From positions 1-35,075 of the IMG/VR virus record IMGVR_UViG_3300007734_000618: a stretch of 35,075 nucleotides of DNA, one strand, 5' to 3'. The stretch is from a virus. Shown piece after piece: positions 26,660 to 34,856 of this stretch; positions within the stretch are counted from its first letter, which is position 1; each line of letters starts with the position of its first letter. Position numbers and translations under genes: made by a program. The notes beneath the pieces are model-generated. The model was not told the DNA's origin. It worked only from the letters and a program-made list of their open reading frames with translations, and did not search any database.

Positions 26660-26790
26660 CAGTACGTCCTCCAGACCTCGATCTCGACGATCCACAGGTA
26701 CAGATGGAACTCGCCACGGTCGAAGCCGATGGCGAAGTACGGCCAGCGACGTGGGAACCATTGCACAGAGATGCGTGGGCGCAGCTTCAT
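26659..26790 (-). CDS. 43-residue aromatic-rich protein
   Basis: This frame, too short for usual gene-calling cut-offs, runs from ATG 26790 (in an ATGA overlap with the RHH gene) to a TGA overlapping the next ATG. The peptide has four Trp, several Phe/Tyr and many Arg (RPRISVQWFPRRWPYFAIGF, then WIVEIEVW) and looks like a small beta-hairpin fold. Tight overlaps on both sides make it a real gene with good likelihood. Role unknown. Confidence 0.65.
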   Translation of the reverse strand: MKLRPRISVQWFPRRWPYFAIGFDRGEFHLYLWIVEIEVWRTY

Positions 26791-26978
26791 GTGGTGGCCT
26801 CCTGCTGCTGGCTGGTCAGCCCCTGCTTGATGTAGTGCAGCACCTGGGCGGCCAGCGTCCTGGTGTCTGCCTCGGCCTGGCGGCGCAGCGCCAGCTCGAC
26901 ATCTGCCGGAATGCGGATCGTCATGTAGCGATCCTTGGTGGCAGACGCCGACGACTTGGAGGTGGTCGGCGCGTCCAT
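26787..26978 (-). CDS. Ribbon-helix-helix (Arc-like) DNA-binding protein
   Basis: This 63-residue protein has a polar N-terminal tail, then DRYMTIRIPADVELALRRQA (about 16-35) and a second helix about 38-53. That is the strand-helix-helix layout of RHH repressors, which bind DNA as dimers through the strand. It is embedded in the accessory cluster between the Tad2-like and tiny genes, so it may regulate that cluster. Overlaps on both sides indicate coupling. Confidence 0.75.
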   Translation of the reverse strand: MDAPTTSKSSASATKDRYMTIRIPADVELALRRQAEADTRTLAAQVLHYIKQGLTSQQQEATT

Positions 26979-28857: not shown

Positions 28858-28946
28858 GTGTTCTGACCTCCAAATTCACCCAAGCATTTTTTGCAGACGA
28901 TCAGTCCGCGCATCGCTCTGCGATATCCACAATGCTCACATATCAT
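28854..28946 (-). CDS. 30-residue zinc-ribbon peptide
   Basis: A very short frame from ATG 28946 has AAGGAG (28958-28953) 6 nt upstream and ends in an ATGA overlap with the HslV-like gene. Its own ATG overlaps the stop of the sigma-like gene. The peptide holds C3-x2-C6 and C18-x2-C21, a complete four-cysteine zinc ribbon. Perfect ribosome site, overlaps at both ends and the intact motif make it a convincing gene. It may be a tiny transcription or translation modulator. Confidence 0.72.
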   Translation of the reverse strand: MICEHCGYRRAMRGLIVCKKCLGEFGGQNT

Positions 28947-29371
28947 TTGCTTCTCCTTTGTTCATGCTTCCACCAAAACCAGGGAATCACCCTGTCGTCT
29001 ACTTCCCACATCGGCACGCCAGTCAGCTCTGACTGGTGCTTGCGAAACCTGCGCATCGCCTTCATCAGAATCTGGCGCACACGTTCCTGCGTGCGGCCCA
29101 TCACCTCGCCTGCCTCGCGCAGCGTGTGGTTGTCCAACACGCACAAGATGACCACCTGCTCCTCCTGCTCTGTCAGCGGCGTGATGGCCACCAGGCGGCG
29201 CGCAAAGTCCTGCCTGATCCACAGATCAGGATCGGTCTGAGTCGGCCACCAGGAATCAATCGGCTCGCATGGCTCTGGCTCGATGTGGCGGCTGTACCAG
29301 ATGGCCTTGACCTCGCTAGACAGGCTGGCCACACCCAGCTTGCCATAGTGCGGAAGGGCGCGGCCTCTCAC
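28943..29371 (-). CDS. Sigma-70 region 4-like regulator
   Basis: This 142-residue protein contains, at about 63-111, LTEQEEQVVILCVLDNHTLREAGEVMGRTQERVRQILMKAMRRF, a full sigma region-4 helix-turn-helix that reads -35 DNA. Regions 2 and 3 are absent, and flanks are Trp-rich. It may act as a phage activator or a sigma appropriator that redirects host RNA polymerase to middle or late promoters. Start GTG 29371 has GGAGG 5 nt upstream and overlaps the helicase stop; GTG 29377 is the alternative. Confidence 0.78.
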   Translation of the reverse strand: MRGRALPHYGKLGVASLSSEVKAIWYSRHIEPEPCEPIDSWWPTQTDPDLWIRQDFARRLVAITPLTEQEEQVVILCVLDNHTLREAGEVMGRTQERVRQILMKAMRRFRKHQSELTGVPMWEVDDRVIPWFWWKHEQRRSK

Positions 29372-30960
29372 TCCCACCTCCGGCGCATCACTCTGAAAAA
29401 CTTGCCATCGCGCTTGAACTCGATGCTGCGCGGTGGCTGCGTCTGGTTGAGGTTGGCGACCATCTCCTCCAGCGTCTGGACGTTCAGGCCGCCTGGTGCG
29501 ATCTGGCCACGCTCGGCCATTGTCACGAGCTGCTGCATGGCCTTCTGGCCAGCATATCCCTCGTGCATGATCGGCAGGTACTCGGTGATGGCCGGATCGC
29601 TCAGGCCACCGTAGTAGGTGACGGCGATCATCTCCTTGCCACTGGCGCGGCTGACGTGCTTGCGCCAGGTCCAGCCGGTGACATCGAGATCGATGCCTTC
29701 CAGGCCCATGATGTCGTCCTGGCGCAGCTCCAGCTTGCGCTTCTCAGGCTCAGGGAATGCGTGGCCACAGGCCGAGCACACGCGCGCTGCAATGGCGCAC
29801 AGCTCGCCACAGTTATCGCAGACCTTCACTGGTGCCTCGCCATTGCCTTCTCCGGCCTTCTTGGGCGGCTGCACGGCCGTGATCGGCCCATGCGTGGCCA
29901 CCACGCCAGCGAAGTCCAGCACCAGGCAGTGGTCGGTGTGGCTCTTGACCCGCATGCCGCGGCCTGCCATCTGCACATAGAGGCTCGCGCTCATGGTCGG
30001 ACGCAGCATGGCGATCAGGTCGATGTCAGGGTAGTCGAAGCCGGTGGTCAGCACGTTGGCATTGGTCAGGGCGCGCAGCCGGCCGGCCTTGAAGTCAGCC
30101 AGGAGCTGCTCGCGCTCCTTCTTGGGCGTCTCGCCAGTCACGCAGGCCGCAGGGATGCCGTGGATGGTGCTCAAGACGAAGGTTACGTTCTCGGCGTGCT
30201 TGACACCAGCGCAGAAGAACAGCCAGGCCTTGCGCTCGCCGGCCAGCTCGATCACCTCCTGCACCACGGCCAAGTTGTTGGCGTCGGTGTTCACGGCCGC
30301 CTGCAGCTCGGCCTCGATGAACTCACCGCCACGCTTGTGGACGCCAGAGGTGTCCAGCTTGGCCTTGGTGACCTTGCTGCGCAGCGGTGCCAGGTAGTTC
30401 TTGAAGACCAGCTCCTCGATGCTGACCGGCTCGATCAGGTCGTCGAACAGTGCCGGCTTGTCAGTGATCAAGCCGTGGCCAAGGCGGTAGGGCGTGGCCG
30501 TCAGGCCCACCACCCGCAGCGCAGGGTTGATGGCCTTCAGCTCGCCAAGCAGCTTGCGGTATCCACCCTCGTCCTTGTGGTTGACCAGGTGGCACTCGTC
30601 GATGATCACCAGGTCAATGTGGCCCAGCTCGCGCGCCTTGCTGCGCACCGACTGGATGCCGGCGAAGGTGATCGGCTCGCCGAGCTGCTTCTTGCCGATG
30701 CTGGCGCTGTAGATGCCCATCGGCGCGCCTGGCCAGTGCAGGCGCATCTTCTCAGCGTTCTGCTCGATCAGCTCCTTGACGTGCGTTAGCATCAGCACGC
30801 GCGTCTCTGGCCAGTTCTGCAAGGCGTCCTTGCACAGGGCGGCGACGATGTGGCTCTTGCCGGAGCCGGTTGGCAGCACCAGGCATGGGTTGCCTCGGCC
30901 ACCAGCCTCGAACCATGCGTAGAGCACGTCGATGGCGCGCTGTTGGTACTCACGCAGCAT
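29368..30960 (-). CDS. DEAH-box superfamily 2 helicase with zinc ribbon
   Basis: This 530-residue ATPase has Walker A TGSGKS (31-36), DECH (121-124), motif III LTATP (153-157) and motif VI QMAGRGMR (330-337). The usual SF2 lobe pair is followed by a four-Cys zinc ribbon (C381, C384, C395, C398) and an extra C-terminal domain. Res/SSL2-like phage helicases of this size act in replication or recombination, possibly replication-fork restart with the nearby nucleases. It overlaps the gene upstream by 11 bp. Confidence 0.9.
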   Translation of the reverse strand: MLREYQQRAIDVLYAWFEAGGRGNPCLVLPTGSGKSHIVAALCKDALQNWPETRVLMLTHVKELIEQNAEKMRLHWPGAPMGIYSASIGKKQLGEPITFAGIQSVRSKARELGHIDLVIIDECHLVNHKDEGGYRKLLGELKAINPALRVVGLTATPYRLGHGLITDKPALFDDLIEPVSIEELVFKNYLAPLRSKVTKAKLDTSGVHKRGGEFIEAELQAAVNTDANNLAVVQEVIELAGERKAWLFFCAGVKHAENVTFVLSTIHGIPAACVTGETPKKEREQLLADFKAGRLRALTNANVLTTGFDYPDIDLIAMLRPTMSASLYVQMAGRGMRVKSHTDHCLVLDFAGVVATHGPITAVQPPKKAGEGNGEAPVKVCDNCGELCAIAARVCSACGHAFPEPEKRKLELRQDDIMGLEGIDLDVTGWTWRKHVSRASGKEMIAVTYYGGLSDPAITEYLPIMHEGYAGQKAMQQLVTMAERGQIAPGGLNVQTLEEMVANLNQTQPPRSIEFKRDGKFFRVMRRRWE

Positions 30961-33430: not shown

Positions 33431-33871
33431 TTACTCCTTGGTGGTGGTGGGTTCAATGGTGAAAGAAGGGCGGCCAGGCTTGGCCGTGATTGCTGCTGCC
33501 AGCGGCTTGGTGATGGCCTCGTCGGTGGACTTCCAGATGGCCATATTGATCTCTGGCTTCCACCGGAACAGCGTCGAGAGGTGATTGGTCAGGCCGTGCT
33601 CGGCGGCCAGCTCCTGCACCTTGTCGGCGTCTACCTTGCGGTCGATGCGGCCGACGATCTTGACCTTGAAACCTTCGAGCGCCAGGGTCTCGGTGCCTTC
33701 GGTGTCGTCCCGGATGTTGGCGATCTTCCTGATCTGGTCCTCGATCTTGCGACGGTCGGCAGTGGCGATGGCCTCGCTCTCCTTCGCAAACAGCCACATC
33801 TTGGCCAGCTCTTCGGCGTCGGTCACGCTCTCGATCAGCTTGCCGGTGTTCATCATTTCCTTGATGTTCAT
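33431..33871 (-). CDS. Conserved recombination-cluster protein, unknown
   Basis: This 146-residue protein has a helical first half (LIESVTDAEELAKMWLFAKESEAIATADRRKIEDQI) and a beta-containing second half (EGFKVKIVGRIDRKVDADKVQEL, LFRWKPEINMAIWK). I recognise it as a frequent neighbour of Sak4/DUF669 genes but do not know its activity. Start ATG 33871 overlaps the ATPase stop (ATGA). Confidence 0.75.
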   Translation of the reverse strand: MNIKEMMNTGKLIESVTDAEELAKMWLFAKESEAIATADRRKIEDQIRKIANIRDDTEGTETLALEGFKVKIVGRIDRKVDADKVQELAAEHGLTNHLSTLFRWKPEINMAIWKSTDEAITKPLAAAITAKPGRPSFTIEPTTTKE

Positions 33872-34545
33872 GCCTTGCCTCCGATCTTTGCGAACACGGC
33901 CGACAGGTCCGGCGCTTCCCACATATCCAGCTTGCCGCTGCGGTCCTTGGCAAGCCACAGGCCGTCGCTGTCGCACATCAGGGCGCGCTGGGTGTTTCCA
34001 TCGCCATCCTTCTCGACACGCAGGGCCAGCACCTCATCGAAGAAGTACGGCAGCGCCTGGCCGGTCTTGTTGCCAGGCATCGAGGGCGCATACAGCACCC
34101 GGCCCATCTCGTCCTGCGTCTTCTCCAGCTTGGCGCTCATGTAGACGTGGCGGCCAGGCAGGTCGCGGAAGGCGCGAATGATGTCGGCCATCTGCTCCTG
34201 CATCGCACCGTAGGCCTGGCGTGGGTCTTTGGTCGCCTTCTTCTCAGCGTTCAGCACCACCTCGGCGATCTCGCTGATGGAGTCCAGCGCCACCGACTTG
34301 TAGGCCTTGGCGTCGTCCGACTCGGTCAGCCACTTGTAGGCCTCCTGCAGATCGGTCATCGATGCGATCTCGATGAAGGGCAGGTCTGCGTCCTGAATGG
34401 ACAGCAGGCCGCCTTCAGCCGACAGCACGATGGGGCTGGGGAGGGTCTTGATCAGCGAGGTCTTACCAGCGCCGGCCTGGCCATAGACCAGGACTTTCAC
34501 ACCGTTGGCAGACAAGCTGCCGGTGGTCTTCACGTTGATTGCCAT
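33868..34545 (-). CDS. Sak4-like (AAA_24) RecA-fold recombination ATPase
   Basis: This 225-residue RecA-core protein has Walker A GQAGAGKT (22-29), a Walker B-like VALDSIS and a VYMSAKLE segment. The set is typical of phage Sak4 annealases, single-domain RecA relatives that pair DNA strands with help of an SSB. The DUF669 gene downstream supplies that partner. Start ATG 34545 has AAGGAG 8-9 nt upstream; it is the first gene of the leftward operon. Confidence 0.85.
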   Translation of the reverse strand: MAINVKTTGSLSANGVKVLVYGQAGAGKTSLIKTLPSPIVLSAEGGLLSIQDADLPFIEIASMTDLQEAYKWLTESDDAKAYKSVALDSISEIAEVVLNAEKKATKDPRQAYGAMQEQMADIIRAFRDLPGRHVYMSAKLEKTQDEMGRVLYAPSMPGNKTGQALPYFFDEVLALRVEKDGDGNTQRALMCDSDGLWLAKDRSGKLDMWEAPDLSAVFAKIGGKA

Positions 34546-34601
34546 AAGTGGCTCTCCTTCTTGGGTTGCTGCGCCTTCGGCCAATTCCTTTCGCGCAGTG
34601 G

Positions 34602-34631
34602 TTGCATCTTAAACCAGAAATCTGGTACAGT
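34602..34631 (+). promoter_or_regulatory. Rightward early promoter (HTH protein and primase)
   Basis: TTGCAT (34602-34607), an 18-bp spacer and TACAGT (34626-34631) form a sigma70-type promoter 40 bp before the HTH gene. Its spacer contains the palindromic operator, and its elements overlap those of the leftward promoter. Confidence 0.65.
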
Positions 34632-34635
34632 GCAA
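34606..34635 (-). promoter_or_regulatory. Leftward early promoter (recombination operon)
   Basis: On the - strand, TTGCAC (34635-34630), an 18-bp spacer and TAAGAT (34611-34606) make a promoter reading toward the Sak4-like gene. Each of its hexamers overlaps a hexamer of the rightward promoter, so the two cannot be occupied at once by polymerase. Confidence 0.65.
34613..34626. promoter_or_regulatory. Palindromic operator between the interlocked early promoters
   Basis: ACCAGAAATCTGGT is a perfect 6+2+6 palindrome centred in the spacers of both early promoters. It is the likely binding site of the HTH protein encoded just downstream, which would repress itself and the leftward operon. Confidence 0.65.
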
Positions 34636-34670
34636 GCACTCCCGCAAAAATTTTTTCAGAGGTGCAACAT

Positions 34671-34856
34671 ATGATGACTGTCGAGCAGATCAAGAAGAGG
34701 CTGGAAGACGCCAACCTCAAGCGCGTGGCCGAGAATGCCGGCGTCCATCCGGCCACGGTCTACAGGTTCATGCAGGACGAATCCAAGCCCCTGTACGAGA
34801 CGGTCAAGGCGCTGTCGGACTACCTGACACGCCAGGAGGCCGCAACACATGGCTGA
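34671..34856 (+). CDS. Small Cro-like HTH regulator
   Basis: This 61-residue protein is essentially one helix-turn-helix domain: LKRVAENAGVHPATVYRFMQ (about 16-35) followed by a support helix ETVKALSDYL. Size and context recall Cro/CopG-size lambda-type regulators. Start ATG 34671 has GAGGTG 6 nt upstream; a second ATG follows at once. It lies 45 bp from the palindromic operator. Its stop overlaps the primase start by 8 bp, so regulator and primase are co-expressed. Confidence 0.78.
   Translation: MMTVEQIKKRLEDANLKRVAENAGVHPATVYRFMQDESKPLYETVKALSDYLTRQEAATHG

Follow-up and report, generated by a model that had tools for sequence, protein, structure and literature searches.

Fully interlocked divergent promoters have usually been described singly. 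The closest described case is the Pc/Pr pair of the Bacillus plasmid pLS20, with RcoLS20, in which, on the reading favoured by its authors, the -10 and -35 boxes of one promoter correspond to the -35 and -10 boxes of the opposite promoter (PMC4207663). The regulator gene is adjacent, exclusion of one promoter by the other has been proposed, and the system combines one strong and one activator-dependent promoter with DNA looping between two operators (PMC4207663). In the bidirectional promoters of E. coli (Warman et al.), pseudo-symmetric DNA around a single shared -10 loads polymerase two ways, one at a time, with starts 10-23 bp apart in the five studied; the two directions do not compete at basal activity and do so only when one of them is activated (PMC12825309). 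In MerR-type divergent promoters such as soxR/soxS, the site of the regulator lies in the spacer (PMC12825309); MerR acts on badly spaced hexamers.

Here we describe a 34-bp element of a virus record of 35,075 nucleotides, analysed in its entirety and referred to below as the window. We read it as a symmetric overlapping divergent sigma-70 promoter that starts both gene blocks of the genome, with presumed repression by the neighbouring HTH protein and a presumed role for a leader hairpin, a reading to which we assign a probability of about two in three. At the level of sequence, the comparison establishes how the element is laid out, that it is under a promoter-type constraint, that it survives exchanges of the regulator and that the leftward RNA has a structured hairpin at its predicted 5' end. 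The features concerned are the following.

34602-34607, plus strand: rightward -35, TTGCAT (direct sequence reading)
34626-34631, plus strand: rightward -10, TACAGT, with TGG before it (direct sequence reading)
34630-34635, minus strand: leftward -35, TTGCAC, complement of these positions (sequence and relatives)
34606-34611, minus strand: leftward -10, TAAGAT, complement of these positions (sequence and relatives)
34602-34635, no strand: whole interlocked divergent promoter (scan and comparison of relatives)
34638, plus strand: predicted rightward +1, 7 nt after the -10 (from hexamer position)
34599, minus strand: predicted leftward +1 (from hexamer position; the conserved hairpin begins at the next base)
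34613-34626, no strand: palindrome ACCAGAAATCTGGT, 6-bp arms around AA, possible operator (little beyond the outer ACC-N8-GGT and the A/T-rich centre mostly conserved)
34569-34598, minus strand: covarying 5'-terminal hairpin of the leftward RNA (covariation; model match 34561-34604)
34671-34856, plus strand: 61-residue HTH_3 (Cro/C1-like) protein, first rightward gene (Pfam, PHROG, structure model)
34658-34662, plus strand: ribosome site AGAGG of the HTH gene
33868-34545, minus strand: Sak4-like single-strand annealing ATPase, first leftward gene (phrog_124, 2e-59)
34552-34559, minus strand: ribosome site AAGGAGAG of sak4, complement of these positions

The window is the whole virus record. 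In relatives its two ends (35075/1) are joined with ~45 nt between them, which makes the genome a circular or circularly permuted one of ~35.1 kb; the break in the record falls within the primase gene, and ~45 nt are missing from it. On the plus strand, sensible reading frames start with the HTH gene, cross the ends and continue to ~25.3 kb; on the minus strand they run from 34.5 to 25.5 kb. Because they form one rightward and one leftward block, they diverge at a single place, 34602-34635.

Rightward TTGCAT-18-TACAGT and leftward TTGCAC-18-TAAGAT share these 34 bp exactly as the original prediction had it, with an 18-bp spacer in each promoter and a 2-bp overlap between each -35 and the -10 of the opposite promoter. 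Its description of the pair as face-to-face was mistaken: the transcripts diverge, with predicted starts at about 34599 (leftward) and 34638 (rightward), and the pair is an overlapping divergent one. The TGG ahead of the rightward -10 forms an extended -10 motif. A near-dyad, TTGCATnnTA ... TAnnnTGCAA, spans the element, and a perfect version, TTGCATCATA ... TATGATGCAA, is present in three relatives (L071, L073, L080).

In its reciprocal -35/-10 overlap and diverging transcripts the element matches pLS20 Pc/Pr, from which this box architecture is already known. Unlike in the plasmid pair, both phage hexamer sets are promoter-like on their own; a large group of phages, with exchanged regulators, shares the arrangement, and a leader hairpin adjoins it. 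The novelty lies in how widely phages conserve the layout, a natural family with dozens of variants, in the exchange of its regulators and in the hairpin joined to it; our literature search found no report of a conserved phage family with pLS20-like reciprocal geometry. Pseudo-symmetric DNA that would load polymerase two ways, one at a time, is also a trait of the E. coli bidirectional promoters, but the phage element, with a separate -10 at each end and 36-40 bp between its predicted starts, is not of the shared -10 kind. A regulator site in the spacer, putative here, recalls the MerR type, whereas the phage regulator is HTH_3 or P22-Cro-like and the spacers are mostly 17-18 bp.

Each window promoter matches the sigma-70 consensus at 7/12 positions; either alone would be weak, and a threshold-based promoter scan of the window lists neither, 7/12 being below the threshold of the tool. 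Matches of this quality are common by chance, which, with the absence of both from the scan, speaks for a likeness devoid of promoter function. We regard that explanation as hardly credible, for the pair ranks first among 35,035 window positions when interlocked pairs are scored by their weaker partner (sigma-70 matrix), a hairpin is fixed at the predicted leftward start, and the interlock recurs among relatives far beyond the rate in shuffled sequence. No second copy of the element or of the palindrome was found elsewhere in the window.

The relatives comprised 80 viral contigs with the HTH gene and 80 loci fetched by Sak4, with a few contigs in both samples; a second viral contig search, with an HTH alignment, gave the same contigs again. 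The best rightward and best leftward promoters of each region were found independently with the sigma-70 matrix over 125 nt, and a pair was counted as interlocked if each -35 lay at an offset of 3-6 nt from the opposite -10. The interlock was present in 92 of 117 distinct regions upstream of the leftward gene sak4, against 4.0% of shuffled controls (11,700 dinucleotide shuffles), and, after clustering at 75% identity, in 27 of 40 clusters. Most of the remaining clusters are loci where the first leftward gene is not sak4; promoter and hairpin then lie further upstream, interlocked again in most. Idiomarinaceae phage 1N2-2 (TTGACT-17-TATGAT with TTGACA-17-TAGATT), Alteromonas phage PB15 and Alcaligenes phage CASP1 keep the same register with different letters. 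Exceptions are a few clusters with degenerate -35s (L223, L217, L222, L235), Pseudoalteromonas phage H103, whose HTH protein is 50% identical and whose two promoters are separate, and Pseudomonas PSASB_03 and Stenotrophomonas Bhz54, with separate promoters ~55 bp apart.

Across the 27 interlocked clusters T1, A2 and T6 of both -10s and TTG of both -35s are conserved and the remaining hexamer positions vary, a pattern that indicates a promoter-type constraint and bears out the earlier claim of two real, mutually exclusive promoters. Use by polymerase is exclusive at any moment because one bound polymerase covers both promoters; the weight of this exclusion would depend on promoter strength, and the compact genetic switch that the original prediction saw in it remains a proposal. 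In the type-A set, 37 distinct elements adjoining nearly identical HTH proteins with the common recognition helix HPATVYRF, the rightward -35 TTG is kept in 36, 35 and 37 elements at its three positions, and T1, A2 and T6 of the rightward -10 are invariant (37/37), with positions 3-5 variable. The rightward -10 is TATAGT and the leftward -10 TATGAT in most type-A relatives, and the leftward -35 is TTGACA in many relatives with other regulator types. As the commonest form among relatives is TTGCATCATAAACC-N8-GGTATAGTGCAA, TACAGT and TAAGAT of the window are weakened versions of TATAGT and TATGAT. A further stretch, GCAAGCAC..CCGCAAA (34631-34648), lies just downstream of the rightward -10, mostly outside the promoter hexamers, and much of it is nearly invariant in type-A relatives.

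These substitutions also bear on the possibility that one direction only works, the opposite promoter likeness being a by-product of an operator dyad. A symmetric operator would yield mirror-image hexamers, such as the TTGCA/TGCAA inverted repeat seen here, and both window promoters are weak; yet the hexamers of relatives change without the dyad (L072, for example, has TTGCAT-18-TATAGT with TTGAAC-18-TACAAT), and TAnnnT and TTG are nonetheless kept on both strands. Moreover, both flanking genes have ribosome sites, and the 125 nt scanned hold no better promoter. We therefore consider a one-way promoter very improbable. Because the two promoters drift in sequence but stay in register, even where the regulator has been exchanged or is gone, this natural variation allows mutual exclusion and dependence on the regulator to be tested.

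The neighbouring protein scores 25.9 bits against Pfam HTH_3, above the cut-off of 23, and matches phrog_18104, a transcriptional regulator, at 9.9e-21. Its structure model (pLDDT 89.5) gave only middling matches to many small HTH proteins, the best with Z 8.1 and rmsd 2.0 over 57 residues, and the naming of a specific relative by structure was dropped for that reason. Small Cro/C1 repressors typically recognise 14 bp whose ends are conserved and whose centre is A/T-rich, and Cro-like genes adjoining divergent phage promoters usually autoregulate. The original prediction had one repressor dimer on the palindrome block both promoters, and the HTH protein next door apparently govern them; the first idea holds up in part, and the second is a plausible proposal. 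In type-A elements each position of ACC (34613-34615) and GGT (34624-34626) is retained by 30-37 of the 37, and the spacers contain a mean of 3.04 mirror pairs versus 2.04 when shuffled. On the other side, interior positions 34616, 34617 and 34622 are among the most variable of the element, and the perfect palindrome is restricted to the window's own small clade. A conserved 14-bp palindrome as operator was thus rejected in its strict form, the interior varying while the recognition helix is unchanged; an operator of the Cro/C1 type, 14 bp long and conserved at its ends, could still lie here.

Occupancy of the regulator slot adds to this picture. It holds a P22_Cro homologue in L081 (E 3.7e-17) and more distant HTH_3-like proteins in other phages, those that match Pfam being HTH_3 or P22_Cro, and in L239, L241 and L244 it contains no HTH gene; the interlock is intact throughout. 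L212 and L233 have an identical 42-bp element with different regulators alongside. Since regulators are exchanged or absent with the interlock in place, the promoter is independent of any one neighbour. Control by the neighbouring HTH protein is plausible but supported only in part, through the mostly kept ACC and GGT. In the three relatives that lack an HTH gene there, a fresh partial dyad lies between the -10s (e.g. GCATAGTTCTGTGC in L241), perhaps for a regulator encoded elsewhere. An association of a proline in the recognition helix with ACC/GGT in the spacer looked promising and was dropped because of exceptions (L226, L212).

The same observations could be accommodated if the promoter pair were as described and the HTH protein did not act through the palindrome, with promoter strength and host factors deciding the direction and the protein acting elsewhere or on a flank such as GCAAGCAC..CCGCAAA downstream of the rightward start. 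The variable palindrome interior beside the nearly invariant flank, the swapped or missing regulators and the lack of a second palindrome in the genome all agree with this. We think it unlikely, if clearly less so than a one-way promoter; against it stand the retention of most of ACC and GGT, the resemblance to small Cro/C1 sites, the excess of mirror pairs and the habitual autoregulation of Cro-like genes. The preferred reading, repression through the spacer of a two-way promoter, has its own counterweights in the weak window promoters, a palindrome not conserved along with the recognition helix, identical elements beside different regulators, three relatives with no HTH gene in the slot, the separate promoters of H103, PSASB_03 and Bhz54, and the lack of competition at basal activity in the E. 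coli bidirectional promoters (PMC12825309).

Just outside the 34-bp element lies a part of the finding that is new and absent from the original prediction, a hairpin beginning at +2/+3 of the predicted leftward RNA. Read on the minus strand from 34598 to 34569, it is CTGCGC-GAAA-GG-AATTGG-CC-GAAG-GCGCAG, a 6-bp stem, an internal loop, a 2-3-bp stem and an apical loop, with 9 pairs in ~30 nt. Among the 37 distinct leaders aligned first, pairing is preserved in 97.3% of pair cells, both sides have changed in five of the six outer-stem pairs, and the covariation score is 0.639 versus at most 0.096 with partners slid. The model-fitted set of 65 distinct sequences, which leans towards the hairpin model by construction, gives 98.1% and 0.657 versus at most 0.089. 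The case rests on covariation, because single-sequence folding is unimpressive (z -0.93). Of the 65 sequences, 64-65 retain the unpaired or loop positions A15, A21 and A30 and 60 retain U22, which suggests recognition by something, beyond a plain stem; its covariation and these near-invariant unpaired A's make the hairpin a concrete candidate for a regulatory RNA not described before.

The hairpin model finds one confident match in the window, the leftward copy at 59.2 bits, followed by 14.8 bits for the next. A hairpin on the rightward leader was not supported (fold z +0.54). Counts of G-U and A-C cells (8 versus 5) do not settle which strand carries the hairpin, and its strand was assigned from its place at the leftward start. 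No Rfam 15 family was matched at its gathering threshold, and a permissive search gave only a 13.7-bit miRNA match (E 4.5). The predicted leader structure recalls putL of HK022, an RNA of ~70 nt and two stem-loops that closely follows an early phage promoter (PMC9378689); the present structure, one hairpin of ~30 nt from +2/+3, falls outside the put type.

The hairpin travels with the promoter, not with any one gene, and stays when another gene comes first; it was not found in the Salicola CGphi29, Alteromonas PB15, Pseudomonas and Stenotrophomonas loci (R1). Four relatives have a further copy, which lies ~290 nt downstream of the first and is preceded by a one-way TTGACA-17-CAnAAT promoter of its own.

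L240 and L243: hairpin copies at 723-765 and 1011-1053
L237: hairpin copies at 730-769 and 1013-1055
L242: hairpin copies at 33-75 and 316-358

Promoter and hairpin might even form a single portable control module, in which the symmetric two-way promoter is joined to 5'-terminal hairpins of a new family, read by RNA polymerase or a protein; diverse proteobacterial phages would have kept it while flanking genes and regulators were exchanged. The hairpin could then, for example, signal antitermination or anti-pausing to the leftward operon. We put this forward tentatively and hold it to be rather doubtful.

Under the overlapping divergent promoter that we favour, RNA polymerase would load on the 34-bp element in either direction, probably with host sigma-70 soon after infection, and one bound polymerase would shut out the other from the same bases. 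A rightward start would lead through the HTH and primase/helicase genes, a ParB-methylase and terminase to the P22-type portal and coat, ejection, tailspike-like and endolysin genes, that is, to packaging, virion and lysis functions. A leftward start would serve Sak4, a DUF669 protein, a Cas4-like exonuclease, a helicase, a protein with sigma-70 region 4, an HslV-family peptidase and others. If this single element starts both blocks, the direction taken by polymerase at one 34-bp site sets the division of early transcription. The small Cro-like HTH protein, made from the rightward RNA, may repress both promoters via the outer ACC/GGT triplets of the spacer, which would make for self-limiting expression and not a lysis/lysogeny switch. 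Such a switch is not indicated, because no integrase or CI-type lysogeny repressor was seen among the window proteins scanned, which cover part of the reading frames. The hairpin may stabilise, protect or modify the leftward RNA, or be bound by a protein or by polymerase.

Several further observations concern the gene blocks. The 144-residue leftward protein with a sigma-70 region 4 domain (28943-29377, minus strand; Pfam 5.7e-12) is a candidate regulator of later genes, and a 63-residue Arc-like ribbon-helix-helix protein in the same block (26787-26978, minus strand; weak PHROG match) is possibly another regulator. In the gap after the primase gene, at 1754-1778, two tandem GACTTATCCACA units, each with the DnaA-box sequence TTATCCACA, mark a possible replication origin.
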